From contig CANGBT010000003.1 of NCBI GenBank assembly GCA_947452135.1, forward strand, positions 1 through 60,332: a stretch of DNA of 60,332 nucleotides, in the 5' to 3' direction. The stretch comes from Burkholderiales bacterium (GTDB lineage Bacteria > Pseudomonadota > Gammaproteobacteria > Burkholderiales > Burkholderiaceae_C). The translations under genes and the position numbers were made by a program. Position 1 is the first letter of the stretch; each line of letters begins with the position of its first letter. Under the pieces are notes generated by a model, which saw only the letters and a program-made list of their open reading frames with translations, did not search any database and had not been told where the DNA came from. Positions 16,331 through 51,436 of this stretch are shown here, piece by piece.

Positions 16331-20602
<4,272 letters not shown>

Positions 20603-34578: not shown

Positions 34579-34727
34579 GTGCCTGTGCCAGGCGCCGATC
34601 CAGCGGTTCAGATTTATCCTAAATCGACCGATAACGGCATGTGGCGGCCGGAGTTGCCAGTCGCTCGTTGTCCGTTTTCTCGTCGGCCGGACGGTTTTTC
34701 GTCAGTTCCAGCACAGGAGGCGCTGTC

Positions 34728-35870
34728 ATGAAGATCTTGCAAGCTTGCTTTCCGCGCTGTCCCGATGCGGGTGAACTGAGCGATCTGGCCACCATCGAGC
34801 CTCAACTTGTGCTGGTGTTTGGCTCGGTCGCACTGATCAGTGACCCGGGGGTTCTGCGATCTCTGCGCAGTGCTTTTCCCGAGGCGGAACTGGCCGGGTG
34901 TTCGACCGCCGGCGAGATCACCGACGATGGGGTGCTTGATGACCAGCTCGTGCTGACGGCATTGCACTTCAAGCACCCTGGCTTTGTCGTGGCAACCACC
35001 GATCTGCACGGCATGTCCGACTCTGTGGGTGCGGGTTTGCGGTTGGCTGAACAGCTCAACGCGCCCGATTTGCACAATGTCATCGTGTTCAGCCAAGGGG
35101 TGAACGTGAACGGAAGCGCCTTGCTTGAGGGCTTCGGTCAGGGTCTCGCTCCCAGTGTGAAAGTGTCGGGCGGACTGGCAGGTGACGGTGCTGCGTTCAA
35201 GAAGACCTACACGCTGTCGCGGCAGGCGGTCTCGAGCGAGCAGGTGGTGGCGATCGGGTTCACATCTGCAAACTTGGAAGTCAGGCACGCGTCGCTCCAC
35301 GGCTGGAATCCATTTGGGCCGGCGCGCGCGGTGACGCGATGCGAAGGCAACGTCCTGTACGAACTTGACGGCGCACCGGCGCTCGAGGTTTACAAGGAAT
35401 ACCTGGGCGCTTACGCGAAAGACCTCCCCGGCTCAGGACTGCTGTTTCCTTTCGAGATGCTGTCCAGCGACCACCAGACCATGGGGCTGATTCGCACCAT
35501 TCTTGCCATCGACGAGGCCGTCGGAAGCCTGACATTGGCTGGCGATATCGCCGAGGGCTGTTACCTGCGGCTGATGCACGCCACCACGGACTCTCTCGTG
35601 GATGGCGCGCATGAGGCTGCCGTGTCCGCCGGTGTCGACGGGCAGTCCAGCGCTCAGCATCTGGCGCTGCTGGTGAGCTGTGTCGGGCGCAAACTGGTGA
35701 TGGGTGCCAGGGTGGACGAAGAAGTCGAGGCCGTTACAGCCGTGTTCGGCGGCAATGTCCGCGTGGCGGGTTTTTATTCCTACGGCGAAATCAGCCCGGG
35801 GCCGCACGACTCGGTTGCCTCCGATTTGCACAACCAGACGATGACCATCACCCACTTGATGGAACGCTGA
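34728..35870 (+). CDS. FIST N-terminal/C-terminal domain signal sensing protein
   Basis: [55 protein letters not shown]...[14 protein letters not shown]...[15 protein letters not shown]. Confidence 0.88.
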
Positions 35871-35880
35871 GTCCGTACCC

Positions 35881-37755
35881 ATGAGCGACCTCGGGATCTT
35901 TGGCAACCGCGCCTTTGCGCGGCAACTCAGGCGTCATCTGGGCATTGACGGTCAGCAATCGCTCGACACGCTGATCGCGACCCTGGACGAGGCGGGTATT
36001 GAACATCCCGCGCTGGCTCGTCTGTCCGAGCAGTTGCCCAAATTCATGGCCGTGGTGGCTGACAGCTACGAACAGTTCGACCGCGACCAGGTGTTGCGCA
36101 CCCGCAGCCTGGACATCTCGTCGCGTGAGCTTCATCAGATCAACGAGCATTTACGCACCGCCACCCAGAAGGCCGAGGTCGCCAGCGCAGCCAAGTCACA
36201 GTTTCTCGCGACGATCAGCCATGAGATTCGCACGCCCATGAACGGGGTGCTCGGCATGGCCGAATTGCTGCTCGACACTCAACTGGACCCGGAGCAACTG
36301 CAGTTCGCCCGAACCATCGCGCAGTCAGGTCAGGCGCTGCTGTCGATCATCAACGACGTGCTCGACTTCTCGAAGATCGAAGCCCGAAAGCTCAGCCTGG
36401 AGCACATCGCATTTGACGTGTTCGACAGCGTCGATGAAATCGCTGCATTGCTGGCTGGCGCAGCCAGTGGCAAAGGTCTGAAGATCATCACCCGGTTTGG
36501 TACCGACCTGCCCCGATCCCTGATGGGGGACCCTGGACGTCTTCGGCAGATCCTGCTCAATCTGGCGGGTAACGCCATCAAGTTCACCCATGAGGGCCAG
36601 GTGACGATCTCGGCGGATGTCGAGGTCAGTGACGCGGCGCATGTGCAATTGCGCTTTGAGGTGATCGATACCGGCATCGGACTGGACACGAGCGCACAGA
36701 CGCAGGTCTTTGACGCCTTCACGCAGGCGGACAACTCGACGACGCGCAAGTTTGGTGGCAGTGGGCTCGGGCTGTCGATCGCCAAGCAGCTGGTGCAACT
36801 GATGGGCGGAGAGATCGGCGTGAACAGCCAGATCGGCCAGGGAGCAACCTTCTGGTTCACGGCTCGTCTTGCGCACAACCCCGACGGTCCGAAGGTGCGA
36901 AGCGAGCCATTTCCGCCAGCGGCAGCCAAAACCCAGACCGCCACTTGCAGTGCACGCATTCTGATTGCCGAGGACAACCCGGTGAACCAGCAGGTCGCGC
37001 AGTGCATGCTCGAACTGCTCGGTTATGAGGCTGATGTGGTGGCCAACGGCCGCGAAGCGCTGGTGGCTGCGCAGACCGGTGCATACGACCTGGTCTTGAT
37101 GGACTTGCACATGCCGGAGATGGATGGCCTGGAATCCACCCGGCAAATTCGTGCCTGGGAGGCCGCAGCGCGCTGCACAGAACCGCTTCCCATCGTGGCC
37201 CTGACGGCCAACGCGCTGTCCGGCGATCGTGACCTGTGCCTGGCTGCCGGCATGAATGACTACGTCAGCAAGCCGGTCTCCCGTCAGGCGCTGGGCGATG
37301 TCATCGGCCGCCATCTCGGCACTGCCGAGAGCGACGCTCCCGTCACGCAGTCGGCCACCCTGACCAGCCAATGGACACAGCCGGTGGCCTTCGATCCGCA
37401 GGTGCTGGCATCGCTGACGATGGTGGCCGACGGCACTCACCCCGGCTATGCGAACGAATTGCTCGACCTGTATTCACGAGAAGCTTCCCGTGCGCTGGGC
37501 GCCATCGATGAGGCTGCCCGTGCGGGGAACGCCGACATGGTTTTGCGTCTTGCGCACACGCTCAAATCCTCGAGCGCGGCGGTTGGTGCCATGTCCATGG
37601 CCTTCGTGACCGAGCAGCATGAGACGCTCTTGCGCGCCGGTAAACACCCTACGCACAACTGGTTGGCTGCCATGCGCAGCGAATTCGAGCGCTTTGAGGC
37701 GGCGCTCGCCGCACACCGGCAACCTGCCGTCGCGCGCCATCGAGAGTTCCGATGA
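35881..37755 (+). CDS. Cytosolic hybrid histidine kinase (HisKA-HATPase-REC-HPt)
   Basis: [99 protein letters not shown]; no obvious TM segment. Confidence 0.93.
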
Positions 37756-39878
37756 ACGCCGCCAGGCTGCTGCTGGTCGACGATGACCTCATCCTGCGCG
37801 GCATGGCCACGCAGACGCTGCGCCATGCAGGCTTCGAGGTGACGGCGGTCGACAGCGGTGAGGAGGGTCTGCGGATCTTTGCCACCGAGCCGATCGACCT
37901 GGTGCTGCTCGATGTGATGATGCCTGGGCTTGACGGGTTCGAGGTCTGCGCGCGCTTGCGCGCAACGCCTCGCGGTGCGCAAACGCCCATCCTGATGCTG
38001 ACCGGCCTGAACGACGCCGAGTCCGTCGACGCGGCCTTTCGTTGCGGCGCCACCGACTTTGTCACCAAGCCCATCAACTGGACGCTGCTGGGTCACCGTG
38101 TGCGCTACAGCCTGCGCGCAAGCGCGACCTCGGAGGCGGCGCTGCGCAGCAGCGAACACCTCGCCAATGCACAGCAACTCGCCAGGCTTGGCAGTTGGGA
38201 ATGGTCAGTTGTTCACGAAGAGCTGACCTGTTCTAAAGAGTTGCTGAACATCCTGGGCCGCACCGGCGCTGAGGTACCGGCGCTCACGGACGACGCACTG
38301 CTGGCGTACGTGCGCGAGCCGGAACGGCTGACCGTGCAGCGTGCCCGTCATGCGGCGGTGCGTGATGGGCAGTCCTACCAGCTCGATTTCTCGATCGAGC
38401 GCTCTGATGGCACGCGCCGCGTTTTGTCCGAGCAGGCCAGCGCCCGGCGCGATTCGAGCGGGCGGGTGGTGGGTGTGGCAGCCATCGCGCAAGACATCAC
38501 CGAGCGCATCGAGGCAGAGCATCGTATTCACAAGCTGGCTTTCTACGACCGTCTGACAGGGCTGGCCAACCGTCAGCTCTTCATGGACTTCTCGAAAATG
38601 GCCATCGAGCGTGCGAGGCGGTTGCATACCCTGTGCGCTGTTGTCCACATCGATCTCGACCGTTTCAAGTCCGTCAACGACGCGCTAGGCCAGAGTGGTG
38701 GTGACGCGGTGCTGCGCACCTTGGCCGATCGGTTGCAAGAGACCATCCGTCGCGCCGACCTGGCATCGACTGCGCGAATCGATCCCGAGGTGGTGGCGCG
38801 CGTTGCGGGAAACGCCTTCACGGTGCTGCTGCTCGATATTGGCAGTAATGAGCATGCAGTCCTGATCACCAAGCGGCTGCTGCAGGCGGTGGCGCAACCG
38901 CTGGATGCCGGTGCGCAGGCGCTGGTGCTCACGGCCAGTGCTGGCATTGCACTGTTTCCTCGCGACGCCAGCGACGCACAGGCCCTTGCCGAGAAGGCCG
39001 AACAGGCCATGTATGCCGCGAAGGACGCAGGCAGGGCTCAGATACGGTTTTACGACGAGGAGATGAACGCGGCAGCCCGCAAGCGGCTCACGCTCGAAAA
39101 CGATCTTCGCCGCGCGGTGCAGGACGGTGAGTTGTGCCTGTTCTTCCAGCCGCAGGTTGAAGCCGACACCGGCGTGATGCATGCCGCCGAGGCACTGATC
39201 CGGTGGCGGCATCCGAGGCGCGGCCTGGTGCCCCCCGCGGAATTCATCCCGCTTGCCGAAGAAACCGGACTCATCGTGTCGATCGGCGACTGGGTGGTGG
39301 GGGCCGTTTGCGAGGCCCTGCAGCGCTGGACGAAGTTGGGCTTCGGCACGTTCTCCGTGTCGATCAACCTGTCGACGCGAGACTTCATGGAGCAAGACCT
39401 CGTCGAGAAACTCGAGACGATGGTGCATCGGTTCGGCATCGAGGCCCAGCAGTTGTCGCTGGAGATCACTGAGACGGTCCTGATGAGTGACACTGACCGC
39501 ACCGTGGCGCGGTTGCACGAGCTGCGCGACAAGGGGTTTGGTCTGTCGATGGATGATTTCGGGACCGGCTTTTCATCCCTCAGCTACCTCAAGCGCTTTC
39601 CCGTCCACGAACTCAAGATCGATCGCTCGTTCGTTCGAGATGCCACGCGCGGTGGCCTGGACGCAGCCATCGCCGGCTCGATCATCGAGCTGGGCAAGCA
39701 GTTTGGACTGCGGGTCGTGGCCGAAGGCGTCGAGACCGCGGAGCAGGCAGCGTTTCTCGTCGAACGCGGTTGCAACACGCACCAGGGCTACCTGTATGCG
39801 CGGCCGATGCCAGCGGATGAATTTGAAGCCGCTTTGGTGAGTGGCGTCACGTTTTCTCAGGCCATGCCGGGCGCGTGA
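37752..39878 (+). CDS. REC-PAS-GGDEF(degenerate)-EAL response regulator
   Basis: [25 protein letters not shown] (REC); GGDEF domain with AGNAF in place of [34 protein letters not shown] and [28 protein letters not shown] (EAL). Confidence 0.92.
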
Positions 39879-39893
39879 CGCGCCACGACCCGT

Positions 39894-41207
39894 TCAACCG
39901 TCTGGCGAACGCCTGCGCAGGCGCTTGGCTTGAATCTGCCAGCCGGCGTGCTCGACCACGTTGGGCGTTGACATCGGCATGCGCTGCCCCAGCCAGCAGC
40001 GCGTGGCGAGCATCGAGTCGCCTGCGCTCATGCGCAGAGCTGCAGAGTCGCCCGGAAACTTCGTCAGTGCCAAGCGGATCGCGTCTTCCTGTGCGGTGTC
40101 CAGGTCGCGCGCTATGAACACCAACCGGCCCCGACCGTCCACGAATGGTCCATCCTTGGGCCATTGCGGCAAGCTGATCGACGGATAGGCCACCGACTGA
40201 ACGCACTGGATCACCTGCGGCAGGGTACTTCCCACCACGTTCATGATGCCCTTCACGCGCAACAGTTTCGAACCATGGGTGGCCAGCACCTGGCCCATGA
40301 CCAAGGAAAAGCCGAGCCACGGCACCGGATCGTCAAAGGCCACCACGAAGGTTCTGACGCCAGCGGCATGGGGAGTGGCTGATGGTGCGGCCTTGACAGT
40401 CGACTTGTCACGCCGATCCAGCAACCGTTCCGTCAGCGGCCTGCCTTCGGCTTCTTGCGGCTTGCTCGCGTCAGCTGGCATCAACCATCCCCGACCCGAG
40501 TCACCCGAGCTTTGCAGTTCGGCTTGGTGTGAAGCCTCGGCGCCGAGCCACGCGGACATGTCGGGCGCCTTGTCGGCCGTGCTGTAGACGCCGCGGCCGA
40601 ACAGGTCGCTGGCATCGATCTTCCCGTTGCGCACACGCCGCAGCGGTGCACCCGGGTTCAGTGTGTGCAGTTCGTGCTCAAGCAGCGTGATGCCATGGGT
40701 CGTCGCCTGATCACACTTGCTGATGAACAGCACGTCGGCCGCCACCACCTGTCGCAGCGCTTCTGGGTAGGCGGACAACTGAGACAGACCGTGAACCGCG
40801 GAAACCACGGTGATCACGCCGTCGCACACATGGCGTGCGGCCACGAAGGGGTCTTCCATGAGGGCGTAGATCACGGGCACCGGATCGGCCAGACCGGAGG
40901 TCTCGATGATGACGCGGGTGATTGGCGCGATGTCCCGGCGGGCGCTGCGCGCGGCCAGACCCTTCAGTGCGCCGATCAGATCGCCCTGGACCGCGCAGCA
41001 CAGGCAGCCCGAATCCAGCAGCCAGAGCTGGTCGTCGAGTTTTTCAACGAGGTGGTGATCGACACCCACCTCGCCGAATTCGTTGACCAGCACCGCGGCA
41101 CCGGCCATCTCGGGCTGCTGCATCCAGTGATTGAGCAGCGTGGTCTTGCCCGAGCCGAGGAACCCGGTGAGCAAGCTGACGGGAATGCGATCAACCGGTG
41201 CCCGCAC
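39894..41207 (-). CDS. CobW/COG0523-family GTPase (putative metallochaperone)
   Basis: RIPVSLLTGFLGSGKTTLLNHWMQ (Walker A), LLDSGCLCCAVQGDLIGAL (CxCC), CobW C-terminal region. Confidence 0.92.
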   Translation of the reverse strand: MRAPVDRIPVSLLTGFLGSGKTTLLNHWMQQPEMAGAAVLVNEFGEVGVDHHLVEKLDDQLWLLDSGCLCCAVQGDLIGALKGLAARSARRDIAPITRVIIETSGLADPVPVIYALMEDPFVAARHVCDGVITVVSAVHGLSQLSAYPEALRQVVAADVLFISKCDQATTHGITLLEHELHTLNPGAPLRRVRNGKIDASDLFGRGVYSTADKAPDMSAWLGAEASHQAELQSSGDSGRGWLMPADASKPQEAEGRPLTERLLDRRDKSTVKAAPSATPHAAGVRTFVVAFDDPVPWLGFSLVMGQVLATHGSKLLRVKGIMNVVGSTLPQVIQCVQSVAYPSISLPQWPKDGPFVDGRGRLVFIARDLDTAQEDAIRLALTKFPGDSAALRMSAGDSMLATRCWLGQRMPMSTPNVVEHAGWQIQAKRLRRRSPDG

Positions 41208-41211
41208 CGAG

Positions 41212-42096
41212 TCACTTCCCGCGCAGTGCGCTCAATCGTTCGAGGACCGATTCCGGACGCAGTCCGGCGGGGACTTCTGCAAAGTAGAACTGGCCGGGTG
41301 CGAGAGCAGGGCACCCCTCGCCGGCAGCAAAGGCGGCGCTGACATCACAACCAACCGCAGCATCGAGGCCTGAGCCTGTCGTGGTCAGTGCGGCCGAGTT
41401 GGAGATGACCGCATCGAAACTGGCCAGATCGGCTGCCGCCACGGCGGTGGACTCGGGCAGGCGCAAAGCGAGCCCCCAACGGTAGTGATGCACCACGTTG
41501 ACGATGGACTGGTAGTGCGACAGGTCCTCGGCGTTGAAGTCGGCCGCAGCACCCGGCTCCTCGAGCAGCACACCTGAAATCGCATAGGTGGACACCGAAC
41601 GCAACAAGTCGGCGATGTACATCGCGCCGTCTTCGACGTCGTCTCCAGTCATCTCCATCTCGTCGCTGCCCGTCAACTGATTGGCATGATGGATCCAGCG
41701 ACGCGGCGAGGGCAGTGCCAACACGAGCGGGGTCTGACCGCGGAGATGAGACAACACGGCCTCGACCACCTCGGCCAGAACCTGACGCGGCGCCTCGGGT
41801 TCGATCAACCTGCGCAAGGCCGTTGCCGGCCTGCGGCGCTTGTTGACCGACTCGGACCAATCGGCGTGCGAGGCGGCCCAGCTGTCGTACAGATCACCGA
41901 CTTCGAGCACCGCCACGTCGGGCTTGACCAACGCGTGAGCCTGCGAAAAGTAGGCCAGATAGTGCGCCGCACTGACCCACGGATCTCCGGCTTCGCCCAG
42001 CAAGAGGCGCTTTGCGTAGTCGGCCGACTTCAGCCACAGGCGTATTTGCCCGTTGCCTTTGGGCGACGGCAGTTGCGTGGCGAAGCCCTCGCTCAT
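41212..42096 (-). CDS. Acetophenone-carboxylase epsilon-like (~32 kDa) subunit, inferred from position and size
   Basis: 294 aa, overlaps the HyuB-like gene by 4 nt in the same operon; size and position match the fifth Apc subunit. No independent motif. Confidence 0.5.
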   Translation of the reverse strand: MSEGFATQLPSPKGNGQIRLWLKSADYAKRLLLGEAGDPWVSAAHYLAYFSQAHALVKPDVAVLEVGDLYDSWAASHADWSESVNKRRRPATALRRLIEPEAPRQVLAEVVEAVLSHLRGQTPLVLALPSPRRWIHHANQLTGSDEMEMTGDDVEDGAMYIADLLRSVSTYAISGVLLEEPGAAADFNAEDLSHYQSIVNVVHHYRWGLALRLPESTAVAAADLASFDAVISNSAALTTTGSGLDAAVGCDVSAAFAAGEGCPALAPGQFYFAEVPAGLRPESVLERLSALRGK

Positions 42097-44369
42097 GTCT
42101 TGTCTTCCAGCAAGGCCCCCAGCTGTGCCAGCCTGGCTTCCAACTCATCGATGCGCACATCCTTGGGGTTGCGCATGTAGTTCGGCTTGGGCTTGTTCGC
42201 GTCACGTGTGATGTCGGGGCTGCCGACGTACAACGTGCCGACGTCATCGCCCCAGCAACCGAAGTACTGGAAGAGTGCAGGTGGCTTGGGCTTGTTCCAG
42301 GTCTTGACGAATTCCTTGTACGGAACACCCCGAGCAATACGCGCCTTGCGTTCGGCGTCACGCAGAGCCTTCGTTTCGACAGGATCGATGACCAGAGTCT
42401 CAGGATCGAACTTGACCTTGTAAAGCCGTGCCGCCACGCCTTGTGACATCAGGCCTTCCTCGATGTCACGGATCACAGCGGCCGGATCGCGTTCCAGCAG
42501 ATCGCCATAGCCGGCGCCCGCGCCTTGCGAAATCATGAACAACTCACCGCGCTTGGAGATCTCGAAGCCCATGCCCATGTGATGGGTTGTGTAGGTCGCT
42601 TCCTCAAAAGGTCGCTCGTTCATCAGCTCGGCGATCGAGTGCTTGAACTTGTGCGGCTCGTCGAGCAGCACTTCGTAGGCGTCGACGCCCTTGATCTTGC
42701 ACAGCGGGTAGGTGCCGCAGGCATAGCCGCCGAACAGGCCCTGAATCGGCGGGATCTTGGCGCCTTGGCACACCGTCATGAAGCCCCACTGCTCGCTGTC
42801 CTTGGTGGACGCGATCATGGTGTAGCCCTGACCGCCGCGGTACTTGCCCGGGGCGATGGCGTCCATCGTCATCTTCTTGGAAACGAGCTGCAGGAACGGC
42901 ACGTCTTCTTCGTTGATTTCCTGCTCGCCGATATCGGCCATGGTGGCGAAGATGGGCGCCAAAGCATGTTCGCCGTCCATGTCCGAGCGCGCACCGCCGC
43001 CCATGCCGTTCAAGTCGGCACAAAGGTTACCAAGCAGTTCACCGTGCTGGCTGACGCCACCCCAGATGAACGTGTTGATCATGTTGAAGGTGGGGGCGTG
43101 CACCTTGGTGTACTTCTCGGGGCAGCTGTACAAGAACTTGGCCACCGCGTGCTGGCCCGCGGTGAAGCCAGTGAAGATCGACATCAGACTTTGCGAGTTC
43201 GGCGCGTCGTACGACGAGTTGACGATCGAGTGTGGATCGGTGATCACTTCGATCGGCGCAAAGGCGGCCTGACTGCGTGGCAGGTCGGGCCAGACATAGC
43301 ACAGGAACACTTGCGACAGCATGCCCTTCAGACCCGCCAGGATGGTGTTGGTGGCGCGGTTGGTGAACTCGGGGGCCGAGCCGCGGAAGTCAAAGATCAG
43401 CCGGTCACCAGTCTTGGTGAGCTGGCAGTTGATCTTGACCACGCAGTTCTCGCGCAGCGTCGAGTCCTGGATGATGTAGGTGCGCACCGTCATGTCAGGC
43501 CACTCGCTGATCCGACGTTTCACCTCGGCACGCACGTTCTCCATCGACAGGCGCAGCGTCGAGACCAACGACTCGGGGCCGTCGGTGCGCAGCGTCTCCT
43601 CGATGCGCTGCTTGATCCGCAAGCAGGCGAACAGCTTGACCTTCATGTCCTCGTACTGCAACTTGGGCTCGCGCACCGAGTTCTGCAAGAAGGTCAGGAT
43701 GTCGCGCTTGATCTGGTAGTTCTCGACGACCCGGAACGGGCACATCTTGAGGCCTTCGTCCGAAGGGCTTTCTGCCATGGATGGCATGCCGCCCGGCTCG
43801 ATGGCGCCGTTTTCGCCTTCGTGAACCGTGCAGGCCACCCAGCAGACGATCGATCCTTCGTGGAAGATCGGAACGATCATGCTTTGATCGGTGTTGTGAA
43901 TGTTGCCGTAGCGCGAGTCGTTGTGGATGAAGCCGTCGCCTTCGCGCACGCCCACCGACGGGTCGTTGACCCAGTTCTTGATGATGAACTTGATCGGGTG
44001 GTGCACCAGCGCCGAGAACACCAGCACGCCGCCCGAACTGGCAATCGCCAGATCTCCTGCCGCCGAGTAAACGCCGGTGATCAGGTCACCCCACTTGGCG
44101 CCAGGGGCGGCACCCATTTGCTCGACCATCTCGAAGCCTTCGTCGCAGCCGGCCTGAATGCGATCGCGGATCTTCGCCACCGTGCGCGCATCGCTGACTT
44201 TGGCGATGCACTCGTCTTCATACGCGCTGCGCGGCATGAGGTCGTGGTTTTGCATGATCTCGGGATCTGGCCCGAGAAACAGCGTGGTGTCGTTCAGGAA
44301 TTTCTTGATCAGTGCCACCTCGGCCGTCGTAGGCGTCTTGGCTTTGATTGGCGTTTCGTTTTCGCTCAT
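42093..44369 (-). CDS. HyuB-like subunit of an acetophenone/acetone carboxylase-type enzyme
   Basis: GDGFIHNDSRYGNIHNTDQSMIVPIFHEGSIVCWVACTVHEGENG...FDFRGSAPEFTNRATNTILAGLKGMLSQVFLCYVWPDLPRSQAAFAPIEV. Confidence 0.85.
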   Translation of the reverse strand: MSENETPIKAKTPTTAEVALIKKFLNDTTLFLGPDPEIMQNHDLMPRSAYEDECIAKVSDARTVAKIRDRIQAGCDEGFEMVEQMGAAPGAKWGDLITGVYSAAGDLAIASSGGVLVFSALVHHPIKFIIKNWVNDPSVGVREGDGFIHNDSRYGNIHNTDQSMIVPIFHEGSIVCWVACTVHEGENGAIEPGGMPSMAESPSDEGLKMCPFRVVENYQIKRDILTFLQNSVREPKLQYEDMKVKLFACLRIKQRIEETLRTDGPESLVSTLRLSMENVRAEVKRRISEWPDMTVRTYIIQDSTLRENCVVKINCQLTKTGDRLIFDFRGSAPEFTNRATNTILAGLKGMLSQVFLCYVWPDLPRSQAAFAPIEVITDPHSIVNSSYDAPNSQSLMSIFTGFTAGQHAVAKFLYSCPEKYTKVHAPTFNMINTFIWGGVSQHGELLGNLCADLNGMGGGARSDMDGEHALAPIFATMADIGEQEINEEDVPFLQLVSKKMTMDAIAPGKYRGGQGYTMIASTKDSEQWGFMTVCQGAKIPPIQGLFGGYACGTYPLCKIKGVDAYEVLLDEPHKFKHSIAELMNERPFEEATYTTHHMGMGFEISKRGELFMISQGAGAGYGDLLERDPAAVIRDIEEGLMSQGVAARLYKVKFDPETLVIDPVETKALRDAERKARIARGVPYKEFVKTWNKPKPPALFQYFGCWGDDVGTLYVGSPDITRDANKPKPNYMRNPKDVRIDELEARLAQLGALLEDKT

Positions 44370-44402
44370 GTCAGACCTCGTGTAGGGTGTTGAATGCGAC
44401 GC

Positions 44403-46547
44403 TCAGGTCGCACTGGCGCGCAGGAACCATGAGGCGCCCTGGCGCGCTGCAACGAAATTCCAGCCCGGATCAACCAGGAAGGTCGTGACCTCGGAGGCAA
44501 CGATCGCCGGACCGGTGATCTGCACGCCGGGTTCGATGGCCGAGCGGTTCCACACCGGGGTGTCGACCGGGCCTTCGTGTCCGACGAAGTGGCACTTGCG
44601 AACGCTTTCGGGCTGTGGCGGCGCGGTGCGCAGTTCAGGAGCCACTGGCTTGATGTCCTCGAACGTGATGGTCTCGTGCTCCACGAAGGCAGCCACGCGC
44701 ATGGTGTTGATGCGAATGCCGGCCTCTGGTGCCTGACTGCCTTCGCCAAAGCGCTTGCCGTAGTCGTTGGAAAACTGCGAAATGATCGACAGCACGTCGC
44801 CCGGACCGTGCACTTCGTGCTGGCCGATCACGGCCGTGGTCGTTACCAGCTGGTTGCCGTAGCGCATGTCGAGCTCGAGACGGTGCTGGATCTGGTCACG
44901 CGCGATGCCCTGCCGCAGCAGGTCCTGCGTGCCTTGCTCCTTGAGCTCGGCCACGATGCTGTTGAAACGCGAGTAGTCGTCAAAGATGTGACGCGTGTTC
45001 GAGTCGTACAGCACCATGTACAGCGACTGCTCGTGGATGTGCAACTGGTGCATGTTGCCAGCACCGACTGCCGAGAACACGGAGCTGAGCGGCGGCGCCA
45101 GGATCTTGTCGATGCCCAGGTTGCGTGCGATGCCGCAGCCGTGCAGCGGACCATTGCCGCCGTACGCCAGCATGGTGAATTCCTTGGGGTCATAACCCCG
45201 TGCGCGCAGTTCGGTGAACAGGCCGTTGGCCATGTTGTCGTCCACCTTCTCGCGAATCATCAGCGCCGCTTCGATCACCGAGCAATCGAGCTCGTCGCAC
45301 AGCGTGTCCTCGATGGCTGCGGCTGCACGCCGGGCGTTAAGGGGAATCGAGCCGCCCGCGTAGTTCTTGGCGTCGAGGTAGCCGAGCAGCAAGTCTGCAT
45401 CGGTGACGGTGGCGTTCATGCCGCCACGGTCGTAACAAGCGGGCCCCGGGTCGGAGCCGGCGCTTTGCGGGCCGCACTTCACGGTGTTGTACATGCGGTC
45501 GTAGCTGGCGATAGAGCCGCCGCCCGCACCCAGCGTGACCAGGTGAACCATCGGCACGGACACCAGCCAGCGGTCGATCACCGGGTTGAAGTCGTAGTGC
45601 TTGACGCCACCTTCCACCACGATGCCGATGTCGTAGCTGGTGCCGCCCATGTCGGTGGCCACCACGTTGCCCAAGCCAGCTTGCATGGCCAGATGCTCTG
45701 ACGCCGCAATGCCGGATACCGGACCGGAGTGGATGGTCTGCAGCGCGTCGGTGGAGTTCAACTGGGCCATGCCGCCCGAGTTGTGGATGACGAGCATCGG
45801 CTTGTCGTAGCGATGGGCGCGCAAATTCTGCTCGAGCGCCGACAGGGCGTGGTACATCGTCGAGTGCAGGTAACCGTCGACGGCAGCGGAGGTGGAGCGC
45901 ACGTACTCGCCCTTGCGACCGGCCACCTGGTGCGACAGGATGATGGGAATCGCTCCCAGCAGATGCGACGGGTACTCCTCGAACAGGATCTCTTCGATGC
46001 GCTGCTCGTGGGCGGGGTTCACCACGCTGTTGACCAGCGCCACCACGATGATCTGCGCGCCACGGTCGACCAGCGACCTGATCTGCGTGCGCACATCGTC
46101 TTCATCGAGCGGCATGACCAGCTTGCCCTCAAAGTCCAGTCGCTCGCGCACGCCGTAGATCATGTGCGCAGCCACCAGCGGCGCGGGGCGGCTGGCGTTG
46201 GGCATGTTTTGTTGGGCCAGGGTGTCGAGACCGTCGCCGTAGCCGCGGGCGCGGCTGAGCGGCACGGTGGCTTCGAAGCCGGCGGTCACCAGCATGCCGA
46301 TCTTCGGACCCTTGTGCTCGATCAGCGCGTTGGTGCCCAACGTGGTCGCGTAGCGCACCGAATCGACCTCGGACAAGATGGTCTCGAGCTCAAGCCCGAG
46401 CACCTTGTTGGCCTTGCCCAAGGCTTCGTTGAAGCCAAGCGCCAGGTTTTGATGGGTGGTGAGTGCCTTGGCCTCGATGTACCGGCCGTCCCAAACCACA
46501 AAGCAGTCGGTGAAAGTTCCACCGATGTCCACAGATATGCGTCGCAT
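44403..46547 (-). CDS. HyuA-like (ATPase) subunit of an acetophenone/acetone carboxylase-type enzyme
   Basis: MRRISVDIGGTFTDCFVVWDGRYIEAKALTTHQNLALGFNEALG...VVATDMGGTSYDIGIVVEGG...LGAGGGSIASYDR. Confidence 0.87.
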   Translation of the reverse strand: MRRISVDIGGTFTDCFVVWDGRYIEAKALTTHQNLALGFNEALGKANKVLGLELETILSEVDSVRYATTLGTNALIEHKGPKIGMLVTAGFEATVPLSRARGYGDGLDTLAQQNMPNASRPAPLVAAHMIYGVRERLDFEGKLVMPLDEDDVRTQIRSLVDRGAQIIVVALVNSVVNPAHEQRIEEILFEEYPSHLLGAIPIILSHQVAGRKGEYVRSTSAAVDGYLHSTMYHALSALEQNLRAHRYDKPMLVIHNSGGMAQLNSTDALQTIHSGPVSGIAASEHLAMQAGLGNVVATDMGGTSYDIGIVVEGGVKHYDFNPVIDRWLVSVPMVHLVTLGAGGGSIASYDRMYNTVKCGPQSAGSDPGPACYDRGGMNATVTDADLLLGYLDAKNYAGGSIPLNARRAAAAIEDTLCDELDCSVIEAALMIREKVDDNMANGLFTELRARGYDPKEFTMLAYGGNGPLHGCGIARNLGIDKILAPPLSSVFSAVGAGNMHQLHIHEQSLYMVLYDSNTRHIFDDYSRFNSIVAELKEQGTQDLLRQGIARDQIQHRLELDMRYGNQLVTTTAVIGQHEVHGPGDVLSIISQFSNDYGKRFGEGSQAPEAGIRINTMRVAAFVEHETITFEDIKPVAPELRTAPPQPESVRKCHFVGHEGPVDTPVWNRSAIEPGVQITGPAIVASEVTTFLVDPGWNFVAARQGASWFLRASAT

Positions 46548-46610
46548 TTCTTTTCCTTTCGAGCCCGCGCTGGGCGCTTGCTCACATCACTGCCGTCGTG
46601 GCGCAGTCAA

Positions 46611-47012
46611 TCAGTGCTTGTGGCCGCCAGCGGTACCCACCACGGCGGGACCGGTCACGGGTTCCTTGACCTCTTCACGCTGCGACCACTGAGCTCGCAA
46701 GGCTGGCAGATCGGGCTGCATGTCATGCAGGGGTGGATGGCCCGGGATGGCGTACTCGGTCTCGACCTGCGTGCCGCAGTTGGGGCAGTAGTACTCCAGG
46801 ATTCGCACCCACTCAGGATCCGGGCTGAAGGTGAACTTGTAGCGGTCGGGGTCGAGGATCGGCGGGTGAATCTCGCGCGGGTCGCGGTTGTGCACCAGCA
46901 TGCCCTCTTTGTAGCTCGCCGTGGCCGTGCCGATGACGTGGTCGCACACCCGGCATTCCCATTGCTCCGCGTCCAGATCGACGCGAAGGTATTCAGTCAT
47001 CAGAACCTTCAT
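46611..47012 (-). CDS. Small zinc-finger-like gamma subunit of the carboxylase
   Basis: 133 aa with two CxxC pairs (WECRVCDHVIG, YYCPNCGTQVE); 4-nt overlap with the 47009 gene. Confidence 0.72.
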   Translation of the reverse strand: MKVLMTEYLRVDLDAEQWECRVCDHVIGTATASYKEGMLVHNRDPREIHPPILDPDRYKFTFSPDPEWVRILEYYCPNCGTQVETEYAIPGHPPLHDMQPDLPALRAQWSQREEVKEPVTGPAVVGTAGGHKH

Positions 47013-48982
47013 GAACTAGCCTTTCTGTTCAACATGATGTCGCCCGCGTCACTGATGACGAAGGACCAGCCGTCCAGCACCCGGCAGGTGAAATAGTCTT
47101 CTTCGATGATGGCCGGACCGCTGGCGTGATCTCCCGCCTTGAGCGCGCTCATGCGGTAGACCGGCACGTCGATGCGACCGTCCTGTCGTGTGAGCACGTT
47201 GCGCACCCCTTCGGACAGAGCCGGCGCCAGTTCGGCAAATTTCGCGTGGGTGTCCGATTGGGCGCGCAGACGCTTCACCGCCGTCATTTCCAGTTCGACC
47301 GAGTCGGAGCTGGCGATGCCCGAGGCCAGGATGGGCACGGCGGAGAGGGCGTGGGTCGATTCCTTGCCATTGGCGTCGGTCACCACCAGTTGAGCATCGA
47401 TCTCGAAGTCATCACCGCTGCAGCCTTCGGCATACATGTCTCGAACCGCTCGCACCTTGAGCGAGGCATAGGCATCTTCCAGTGCCTCTTGCGAGACGGC
47501 GGACAGCGGCTCGCAATAGCGCTGCGAGATGTCGCAAGTGCCGATGCCGTAGGCGCTGAACACCGCAGCCATGTGTGGAATTGCGACCTGATTGATCCCG
47601 GCCACTTCAGCCACGCCGCAGGCATTGAGGGGACCCGCGCCGCCGAACGCCAGCAAAACACTCTTGGGCGAGACCTTCGTGAAACGGCACAGCTCGTCGG
47701 CGACCTTGGCCTCGAACGCACGCTCCATCTTCTGGAGTGCTTCTTCGAGCGATACGCCCAGCGGTTGGGCGATGTTGGTATTCACGGCAGTGGCCGCGCG
47801 GTCCAGGTCGAGGCCCATACCGCCACCGAAGTACGACTTCGGGTCCAGCACGCCCGAGAGCAAGCTTGCATCGGTGATGGTCGCGCTCTGGCCACCGCGA
47901 CCAAAGCAAGCCGGTCCGGGCACCGCGCCGACGCTTTGCGGCCCGATCACGATGCTGCCTTGCTCGACCTTGAAGATCGAGCTGCCACCAGCCCCCGCAC
48001 TCATGATCTCGCACAGGGGGATCGACACGCTGATCCCCTCGACGTGGCCGCGACGATCTTCAGCGACCTTGCCGTTGACGAACTGGCCGATGTCGGTGGT
48101 GGTGCCGCCAACGTCGATGGCCACCACGTCAGAAAAGCCGTACTGCCTCGCGAAGGTCTTGAGGCCTTCCATGCCGCCACGCGGACCGGAGCTGTAGGTC
48201 TTGATGGCGATGGTCTTGGCCACGCGCGACGCATCACCGTCGTTGCGGAAGATCAGCAGCGGGTTCTTGGTGCGGTACTGGCGCAGGCGGTTTTCGGCGT
48301 TGTAGAGGAACGCCTCCATGCCAGGGTGCAAGAAGGAGTTGATCAGCGCGGTCCAGGTGCGACGCACCTGATCCTTGTCGACGCTCAAGTCGCTACCGTA
48401 CAGCATGGGCACGGCGCCCAGCAGGTGGCGCGGGTACTTGCGCAGAGCGATCTTGCGGAAGGCATTTTCCGTCGACGCGAAATCGGCTCCACCGAAACTC
48501 ACCACGATGCGGCTCGCGCCTTGACCCGTCAGGGCATTGGTCGCCTTGACCACCGCCATGGCGCCGTCGGAGCCTGTCACCTGCGCCGGGTCGAGGTAGA
48601 CCACCCGGTCGCCAACCAGCGCCGCGTAGACGTCCGGATCGTGAGCGGCGAGTTCGGCTACCAGATCTGCGGCGCCAGCGTTCACGATCAGACCCAGACG
48701 TGGGCCCTTGCGCTCGCAAATGGCGTTGGTGCCCTGGGTGGTGGAGTAGCGAATGAGCTCGACTTCTTCAAGCAATCGCTTGACGTCTGGCTTGCCGTAG
48801 ACCACGCCGGAGGCCTTTTCGAGACCCTCGAAAAAGCACTTGCTCAGGTCGTAAGGCGTGGTGAGCACCTTGGTCTTCTTGACGTCTGATCCGTCAATGA
48901 TGCAGATGTCTGTCAGCGTCCCGCCGTTGTCGATGTTGATCTGTATGCCCATGGCAGAGTCCCGATGATTGGTAGTCGACAA
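47009..48982 (-). CDS. Second HyuA-like subunit of the carboxylase
   Basis: IQINIDNGGTLTDICIIDGSDVKKTKVLTTPYDLSKCFFEGLEKA...VVAIDVGGTTTDIGQFVNGKV...SAGAGGSSIFKVEQGSIVIGPQSVGAVPGPACFGRGG. Confidence 0.85.
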   Translation of the reverse strand: MSTTNHRDSAMGIQINIDNGGTLTDICIIDGSDVKKTKVLTTPYDLSKCFFEGLEKASGVVYGKPDVKRLLEEVELIRYSTTQGTNAICERKGPRLGLIVNAGAADLVAELAAHDPDVYAALVGDRVVYLDPAQVTGSDGAMAVVKATNALTGQGASRIVVSFGGADFASTENAFRKIALRKYPRHLLGAVPMLYGSDLSVDKDQVRRTWTALINSFLHPGMEAFLYNAENRLRQYRTKNPLLIFRNDGDASRVAKTIAIKTYSSGPRGGMEGLKTFARQYGFSDVVAIDVGGTTTDIGQFVNGKVAEDRRGHVEGISVSIPLCEIMSAGAGGSSIFKVEQGSIVIGPQSVGAVPGPACFGRGGQSATITDASLLSGVLDPKSYFGGGMGLDLDRAATAVNTNIAQPLGVSLEEALQKMERAFEAKVADELCRFTKVSPKSVLLAFGGAGPLNACGVAEVAGINQVAIPHMAAVFSAYGIGTCDISQRYCEPLSAVSQEALEDAYASLKVRAVRDMYAEGCSGDDFEIDAQLVVTDANGKESTHALSAVPILASGIASSDSVELEMTAVKRLRAQSDTHAKFAELAPALSEGVRNVLTRQDGRIDVPVYRMSALKAGDHASGPAIIEEDYFTCRVLDGWSFVISDAGDIMLNRKASS

Positions 48983-49709: not shown

Positions 49710-50354
49710 TCAGGGAATGCCCACGGCCTTGTGCGTTTGCACGCTGAGGCGCCATTGAGGGTGGGCCAGGCAATAGTCGATGGCCGCACGGGTGTTGCGC
49801 ATGCGCTCCAGGCCGTCCATCGGCTGCAGATAGAACAACTCGAAGTCCAGATCCGCGAACTGCTCGGGCATGGCGCCGGGCTGCGGAAACACCAGTTTGA
49901 GCTCGGTGCCGCGCGTGAGCACCAAGTCGGCGCCGGCCTTCGGGCTCACGCAGATCCAGTCGATGTCGGCAGGCGCGACTTGCGTGCCGTTGGTTTCCAC
50001 GGCGATCTCGAAGCCGTGGAGGTGCAGCGCCGCGATCAGCGGCTCGTCGAGTTGCAGCAAAGGCTCCCCGCCAGTACACACCACCAGCGGTTTGCCCAGC
50101 AAAGCGCCGGCTGGCCACAGCGATGCGATGTGTGCGGCCAGCGCCTCGGCGGAGTCGAACTTGCCACCGCCGAGGCCATCGATGCCCACGAAGTCGGTGT
50201 CACAGAACCGGCAGATGGCCTGGTCACGATCGGCTTCGCGTCCGCTCCACAGATTGCAGCCGGAAAAACGGCAAAACACCGCGGCGCGGCCGGTCTGGCC
50301 GCCTTCGCCTTGCAGTGTGTAAAACGCTTCCTTGACCGAGTACGCCATGGTCAC
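49710..50354 (-). CDS. queE: 7-carboxy-7-deazaguanine synthase QueE (radical SAM)
   Basis: [51 protein letters not shown]...[21 protein letters not shown]. Confidence 0.95.
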
Positions 50355-51436
50355 ACCGGAAGCGCCAGCACGGCGCCAGGCTCTGACACGATGGCACCGC
50401 AGCCCTCGGTTTCGTACAGATCCACCCGGTCGAGCTGCGGTAGCTGCACACGGGCGTGCTCGAAGATCCAGCGCGCCACGCTGGCGGTGTCGCAGTCGCG
50501 CAGGTCGGCAATCTCGTGCAGCGGCTGGTGGTCAAGCTGCTTGAATATCGGGTCAAACAGCGTCTTCACGTCGCCGAAGTCGATCGTCCAGCCCATCAAC
50601 GCGTCGAGCGGCGCCGACAGGTGCAAGCGCAGCGTGTAGGTGTGGCCGTGCAGACGCCGCAGCGCGCTGCCTTCGGGTGCGCGATGGAGCTGCAAGGCGC
50701 TGTCCAACGTCAGCTCCTTCCACACGCGGTAGCGCTCGCCGTCGAACAGCGCGCCGCACGAGGCGGTCTCGTACACGGTCACCCACGACAGCGCGGGCAG
50801 CACCGGCTTCAGGCGAGCCCAGATCCAGCTCGACAGCAATTCGCTGGTCGGGTTGCTCAGGCCGGTCAGGTCGTTCAAGCAGGCGTGATCGAGCTGTTGC
50901 TGCAGCGGCGCCCAGGCCGCATCAATGTCGTCATGGCTGATCGTCACTGCAGCGTCTTGATCGGCATGCAGCACCACCTCGAAGCCGTGCCCATGCATGC
51001 GGCCGCACTTGTGACCGGCAGGCACGCGCGGAAGCACATGCGCGGCCTGGAACACATGGCGTCGCCACAGATGCGCGTGGCCCACGACATCCACGTCGAC
51101 GCCACGCCTCGGTGTGCTTTGCAAGCGCAACTGTGTCGCGGTTGGCAGACCGGGCTGCTGGGCGATCCAGCGCGCCAGGTTGGCGTCGGAGGGCAACGCG
51201 ACCTGGTCATTGAGCAGCTGGTGATCGAGCGGCGCAACGGCGGCTGTCAATTCCTGATGCAGCCGCTGCACCTGACCACCTTCAAACGCCGCCCACAGCG
51301 CCGGCAAAGCGCAGCGCACTTGCGCCACAAAACCGTGGCCGTGCAGTCGGGCCGAAGGGTGACCGTCTGGTAGTTCAGCGATCTGGCGGGCTGCCTCGAA
51401 GCGGGTCGCTGCGCAGATCAGCGTGTCGATGCTCAC
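50351..51436 (-). CDS. queD: QueD-like protein with three tandem 6-pyruvoyl-tetrahydropterin-synthase (PTPS) domains
   Basis: Three HGH-containing units: [113 protein letters not shown]. Confidence 0.88.

Follow-up and report, generated by a model that had tools for sequence, protein, structure and literature searches.

Five genes on the minus strand of the window (the whole 60,332-nt stretch of DNA analysed, from a Burkholderiales bacterium) were found at the lengths and in the order described in an earlier, sequence-only reading (Table 1). The 4-nt overlaps it had claimed for two junctions lie at 47009-47012 (alpha'/gamma) and 42093-42096 (beta/epsilon). According to the ORF list, the gene order alpha'-gamma-alpha-beta-epsilon is that of apcABCDE. 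Pfam assigned alpha', gamma, alpha and beta to Hydantoinase_A, Acetone_carb_G, Hydantoinase_A and Hydantoinase_B, respectively, with E values from 6e-39 (gamma) to 4e-73. Given these matches, and since almost all of the 80 public loci with enough flank show this five-gene order too, the operon is not a chance arrangement. The 294-aa epsilon protein, for which no family had been recognised, gave no match in the Pfam search. Although the five genes are real, a sixth had been overlooked: a gene coding for a COG0523/CobW GTPase begins 4 bp past epsilon, on the same strand and within the same gene run. No CoA ligase, thiolase or alcohol dehydrogenase was found beside the operon among those ORFs of the 60 kb window that were annotated. 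For these ORFs, the earlier statement that neither a benzoylacetate-CoA ligase nor a 1-phenylethanol dehydrogenase lies nearby also holds; it is the CobW gene, and not a benzoylacetate-CoA ligase, that follows epsilon in the operon.

Table 1. Genes of the carboxylase-type operon, with positions in the window
Feature	Position	Strand	Description
alpha' subunit	47009..48982	minus	ApcA-like HyuA-type ASKHA kinase, 657 aa, TTG start
gamma subunit	46611..47012	minus	133 aa, zinc-finger-like Cys20/23/76/79
alpha subunit	44403..46547	minus	ApcC-like HyuA-type kinase, 714 aa; presumed ketone activator
beta subunit	42093..44369	minus	HyuB type, 758 aa; metal site D95/H158/D161/H183
epsilon subunit	41212..42096	minus	ApcE-like, UROD/TIM-barrel fold, 294 aa
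COG0523/CobW GTPase	39894..41207	minus	437 aa, GTG start; GCxCC motif (GCLCC here); proposed metal-delivery partner

Elsewhere in the window, a c-di-GMP signalling operon (34641-39878, plus strand) converges on the carboxylase operon. It codes for a FIST-domain sensor, a hybrid histidine kinase with an Hpt domain and a receiver-PAS-GGDEF-EAL protein, and is kept in a related locus (L032). A 361-aa ORF with three PTPS (QueD-type) stretches (50351-51436, minus strand) sits between queE and queC. Further away, a 1423-aa protein (16331-20602, minus strand) joins an amino acid permease-like part to a histidine kinase and two receiver domains, a CbrA-like layout.

Subunit homology and conserved sites

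For each of the four core subunits, the closest relative in the PDB was its own partner in acetophenone carboxylase (Apc), well before acetone carboxylase (Acx). The best match of alpha' was ApcA (5l9w_b, 1e-85; second best, 6e-64), with which it also grouped in a tree (support 98/92). Gamma matched ApcB (5l9w_C) at 1.5e-29 and Acx gamma at 1.5e-9; alpha matched ApcC (5l9w_B) at 1.5e-161 and its Acx counterpart at 1.6e-86; the best match of beta was ApcD (5l9w_A, 1.1e-83). The ATP motifs of alpha and alpha' were invariant or almost so in about 70-75 relatives (NGGTLTD, DVGGTTTD and AVPGPA were kept across 70 rows for alpha'), and the family alignment showed the RER(L/V)D fingerprint in alpha. 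The four Cys of gamma were invariant in 75/75 relatives, and the metal tetrad of beta (D95, H158, D161 and H183) in 78/78. The beta metal ligands of Apc and caprolactamase are likewise Asp-His-Asp-His (PMC5214803, PMC8453981), whereas the first ligand is Glu in acetone carboxylase (PMC8453981), as was also seen in its alignment with the window beta. Acetone carboxylase was rejected as an identification on the grounds of the five subunits, not three, and of Asp95, not Glu, at the metal site.

Some features depart from Apc. Two of the three residues proposed for the Apc bicarbonate site are changed in alpha' (E248 to S264, K281 to D297); with these two absent, the subunit may have an altered role. 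Beta has a conserved C-terminal tail past the segment that aligns with ApcD. The NCBIfam models for ApcA to ApcD scored far under their cut-offs (345/1250, 126/250, 578/1500 and 319/1500 bits, respectively).

ApcE is the most divergent Apc subunit (PMC5214803), and neither the single epsilon sequence nor a 52-row profile of its family matched any PDB sequence. A literature search on ApcE provided nothing helpful. The AlphaFold model of epsilon reached a pLDDT of 85.8 with nine sequences and 94.4 with 50. When it was compared by Foldseek with 350,542 PDB chains, the top three matches were the ApcE chains of 9fou, followed by uroporphyrinogen decarboxylases (UROD fold; TM about 0.6). A sequence bridge was provided by the epsilon of locus L027, which lies beside a near-canonical Apc cluster and matches 9fou at 5e-11. 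Comparison of the 52-row profile with one canonical epsilon by hhalign gave E = 0.22; with a three-member ApcE set the probability was 67%, a suggestive value that was then checked against a background of 5,153 ORFs. All 25 best places obtained for an ApcE profile (made from 9fou segments, L113 and L027) in these 5,153 ORFs were taken by epsilons of the window's family, and the reverse profile, of family epsilons, ranked L113 first (2.6e-5). Given the Foldseek matches, the L027 bridge and the profile ranking, the 294-aa protein is a homologue, if a remote one, of ApcE and has a UROD-like barrel. Its proposed place as the fifth Apc subunit is thus borne out, and the Apc-type composition suggested earlier agrees with gene order, best PDB partner per subunit, metal site, motifs and the epsilon-ApcE homology.

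Distribution, neighbouring genes and metal supply

A scan of GTDB contigs found 325 beta relatives, 80 of which were kept; the clade is thus widespread, with at least 325 GTDB loci. The five-gene order extends from Pseudomonadota to Rhodococcus plasmids and a haloarchaeal plasmid (Halorientalis), and culturable carriers include Azotobacter vinelandii, Xanthobacter and Rhodococcus jostii RHA1. The operons of the linear Rhodococcus plasmids pRHL2 and pDK2 (L112 and L137), from two strains, are nearly identical; their beta is 51.7% identical to the window beta, and they offer a convenient genetic system. At a beta threshold of 1e-60, only 6/369 sampled genomes of the class passed, and the operon was absent from all other sampled members of the window's family; this sporadic occurrence fits horizontal spread. 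The location is kept in the closest relatives, whose operon likewise adjoins queF and, in L032, the c-di-GMP signalling genes as well; somewhat more distant relatives have neither neighbour. Searches of viral contigs led to nothing, and searches of the literature found no assay of any clade member and gave no lead on this gene cluster.

The CobW protein matched the Pfam domains cobW (1e-40) and CobW_C (8e-14), and scored under the cut-offs of the CobW, PRK11537 (YjiA-type) and ZigA equivalog models. A CobW gene was found within about 10 kb in 36 of the 42 complete loci of branch I, to which the window belongs, and in 0/11 of branch II (marine gammaproteobacterial loci); a ZIP transporter gene follows epsilon in five of the six branch I loci without CobW (the loci are related, and these counts are not independent events). 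The GCxCC motif was present in 43/43 CobW proteins. The gene may follow epsilon immediately, lie farther downstream or sit upstream on the opposite strand, a variety of positions that argues against simple inheritance of one arrangement. The GTPase would load or safeguard a metal, probably zinc, of beta or gamma. A GTPase dedicated to this task would be a novelty, as acetone carboxylases reportedly take up Mn or Fe unaided by chaperones (PMC10865871).

The genes around related loci suggest a pathway. Apart from the window's own group, the nearest relative found in whole genomes is L019 (beta, 69%), where genes for an AMP-forming CoA ligase, a thiolase and two zinc alcohol dehydrogenases come after the operon. 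A ligase and a thiolase occur in 10 of the 11 complete branch II cases, and one alcohol dehydrogenase family in 6/11. About a quarter of the branch I loci have the A and B subunits of a 3-oxoacid CoA-transferase, and sometimes a thiolase; in an Acidovorax locus this is a BktB-type beta-ketothiolase, above the model cut-off. These neighbours point to a route from ketone to 3-oxoacid, then to 3-oxoacyl-CoA and thiolysis. The window's own genome has separate acetone-carboxylase-type alpha and beta genes, beside which (contig C39) lie a sigma-54 regulator, a CoA ligase and a thiolase; contig C52 codes for the B subunit of a 3-oxoacid CoA-transferase. The C39 genes (L018) are also adjoined by UbiD, a GST and a HEPN_AbiV protein, an AbiV-like gene being odd inside a catabolic cluster.

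The relatives also have signs of sigma-54 control. A GAF sigma-54 regulator, about 60% identical to the one beside the acetone-carboxylase-type genes of the window's own genome, was found in 28/42 complete branch I loci and 8/11 complete branch II loci. Upstream of alpha', -24/-12 promoters were detected in 55 of 69 loci (L035 and L089, whose genes are incomplete, being left out), compared with roughly 7-9 expected from base shuffles. Within the stretch covered, the window's own subclade showed neither the regulator nor the promoter, so control there differs.

Substrate pocket and proposed reaction

In a maximum-likelihood tree, the window alpha fell inside a 26-row clade with 100/100 support. 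This clade is itself firm, although the deepest joins of the tree are uncertain because of long branches. It leaves out ApcC of Aromatoleum, which pairs (100/100) with the alpha of L027 in genome G489, and AcxB, which pairs (100/100) with the second copy in the window's own genome; caprolactamase (CapA) and N-methylhydantoinase form a branch of their own (98/96), outside the window clade. The check by phylogeny called for earlier thus placed the subunits, as judged from alpha, outside the hydantoinase clades.

Seven residues of ApcC are the proposed lining of its acetophenone pocket: L81, F281, N282, P285, I333, Q344 and T345 (PMC5214803). The window alpha has T72, I272, H273, P276, I324, H335 and L336 at these positions; five of the seven therefore differ (L81 to T72, F281 to I272, N282 to H273, Q344 to H335 and T345 to L336), with P285 and I333 kept. 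Except for one I324V, this pocket was invariant among 74 relatives; it reads T-I-H-P-I-H-L, versus L-I-V-P-M-A-M in Acx. Together with the alpha' site and the beta tail, we read the changed pocket as a sign of a different substrate, not of function loss. Several gammaproteobacterial genomes (L020-L026) hold two divergent copies of the family, and in L020, L021 and L023 one copy type has Tyr at the position of H335, which suggests that different substrates may be used inside one cell.

These results bear on whether the operon encodes a strict acetophenone carboxylase, converting acetophenone to benzoylacetate. The subunits, their order, the metal site and the ASKHA motifs are the same, and several relatives are, by name, aromatic-hydrocarbon strains. 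This reading is nonetheless unlikely, and so is acetophenone as the substrate: the pocket differs, the window alpha lies in a clade apart from EbN1 ApcC, no CoA ligase is adjacent and none of the four NCBIfam Apc models comes near its cut-off (L027, which does pair with ApcC, is also under it). In addition, G489 has a copy of the window's family besides L027, and L027 is accompanied by an ApcE homologue of its own and by a PaaK-like ligase. The identification as a strict acetophenone carboxylase was rejected on the pocket and the clade.

An ATP-dependent amidohydrolase of the hydantoinase, oxoprolinase or lactamase type, with recruited extra subunits, would account for the hydantoinase/oxoprolinase folds of alpha and beta; further, caprolactamase has the same Asp-His-Asp-His tetrad and depends on bicarbonate (PMC8453981). 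Hydantoinases, however, are two-gene systems lacking gamma (PMC5214803), CapA and N-methylhydantoinase keep to their own branch, the matches of beta to CapB (6.6e-19) and hydantoinase (4e-21) are much weaker than that to ApcD, and the neighbours of relatives are thiolase, CoA ligase or CoA-transferase genes, making this reading very improbable. Hydantoinase or oxoprolinase as such was rejected by the alpha tree and by gene number, gamma being present.

On the whole, the operon probably encodes an ATP-dependent ketone carboxylase of Apc architecture, whatever the identity of its substrate, which would let bacteria use the ketone as food. What the data show directly is the composition, gene order, homology, conserved motifs, distinct clade and pocket, and co-occurring genes; the carboxylation reaction, the substrate and the part of CobW in metal supply are inferred. 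A core of alpha, alpha', beta and gamma, with a separate epsilon, would make a 3-oxoacid from a methyl-type ketone and bicarbonate. On the model of Apc, alpha would phosphorylate the enol form of the ketone, alpha' would activate bicarbonate, the two activated compounds would be joined close to the Asp-His-Asp-His site at which beta binds its metal, and epsilon would be required for the active state. The 3-oxoacid would then be turned into a CoA thioester, which a thiolase would cleave; in this organism these enzymes would be encoded elsewhere in the genome.

The substrate had rightly been left open in the sequence-only reading; what lies beside the relatives' operons, together with the altered pocket, now favours a ketone that is probably not acetophenone. 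Since thiolase, 3-oxoacid CoA-transferase and BktB genes lie near the operons of relatives, an open-chain methyl ketone is favoured, and an aliphatic one other than acetone, such as butanone or a longer 2-alkanone, is tentatively proposed. Acetone is not a likely substrate because the genome has the separate Acx-type alpha and beta, an enzyme by which it is probably already served. MMPL, DUF1302, DUF1329 and YCF48 genes, a set discussed as a 'nanopod' for transport of hydrophobic compounds (PMC13101534), are present in about a fifth to a quarter of the complete branch I loci, which suggests that some members act on a hydrophobic substrate larger than butanone. A bulky ketone with one or more rings, imported via such a DUF1302/DUF1329/MMPL system, or a carbon acid that is not a ketone, would be in line with these genes. 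Most loci lack them, however, and thiolase and 3-oxoacid CoA-transferase suit an open-chain 3-oxoacid better than a ring, so there is little probability in this alternative to the aliphatic methyl ketone.

It is possible, if rather doubtful, that the clade forms a functionally new class of ketone carboxylases, acting on a new substrate, having a remodelled alpha' site and, in one branch, served by a COG0523 GTPase dedicated to metal supply. Such a class would be widespread in Bacteria and occur in one haloarchaeon. It would include an enzyme that depends on a chaperone although its relatives are reported to load metal unaided, the GTPase supplying a catalytic or structural metal. The 2017 structure paper counted a single characterised enzyme in the Apc branch (PMC5214803). 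The sister clade provides a route to the substrate range of biotin-independent ketone carboxylation, and allows asking what the UROD-like epsilon does and testing a client for an orphan COG0523 GTPase.

Comparison with known systems

The two-subunit CapAB and HyuAB enzymes (caprolactamase, hydantoinase and oxoprolinase) resemble the window's proteins in having homologous folds of alpha and beta and an Asp-His-Asp-His site, but they hydrolyse rather than carboxylate and lie far off in the tree. AcxABC (5m45/5svb) has homologous alpha, beta and gamma subunits, and many relatives have a sigma-54 regulator resembling that by the Acx-type genes of the window's own genome. Acx, however, has three subunits and lacks alpha' and epsilon, its gamma is about 35 aa longer, and Glu occupies its metal site where the window beta has Asp95. 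The window's CobW protein resembles metallochaperone GTPases of the COG0523/CobW/ZNG type in its cobW and CobW_C domains and its GCxCC motif; it differs in being tied to a carboxylase operon and in scoring under the equivalog cut-offs.

The closest known system is ApcABCDE of Aromatoleum aromaticum EbN1 (5l9w, 9fou). The window's proteins are distant from it in sequence and form a separate, well-supported clade with another substrate pocket and changes in the alpha' active site; beta is about 70 aa longer, CobW is part of the operon and a CoA ligase is not adjacent. The two nevertheless share the five subunits and their gene order, and the Apc proteins are the closest solved relatives of each core subunit; they also have in common the metal tetrad, the gamma Cys4, the ATP motifs, the RERxD fingerprint and the UROD-like epsilon fold.
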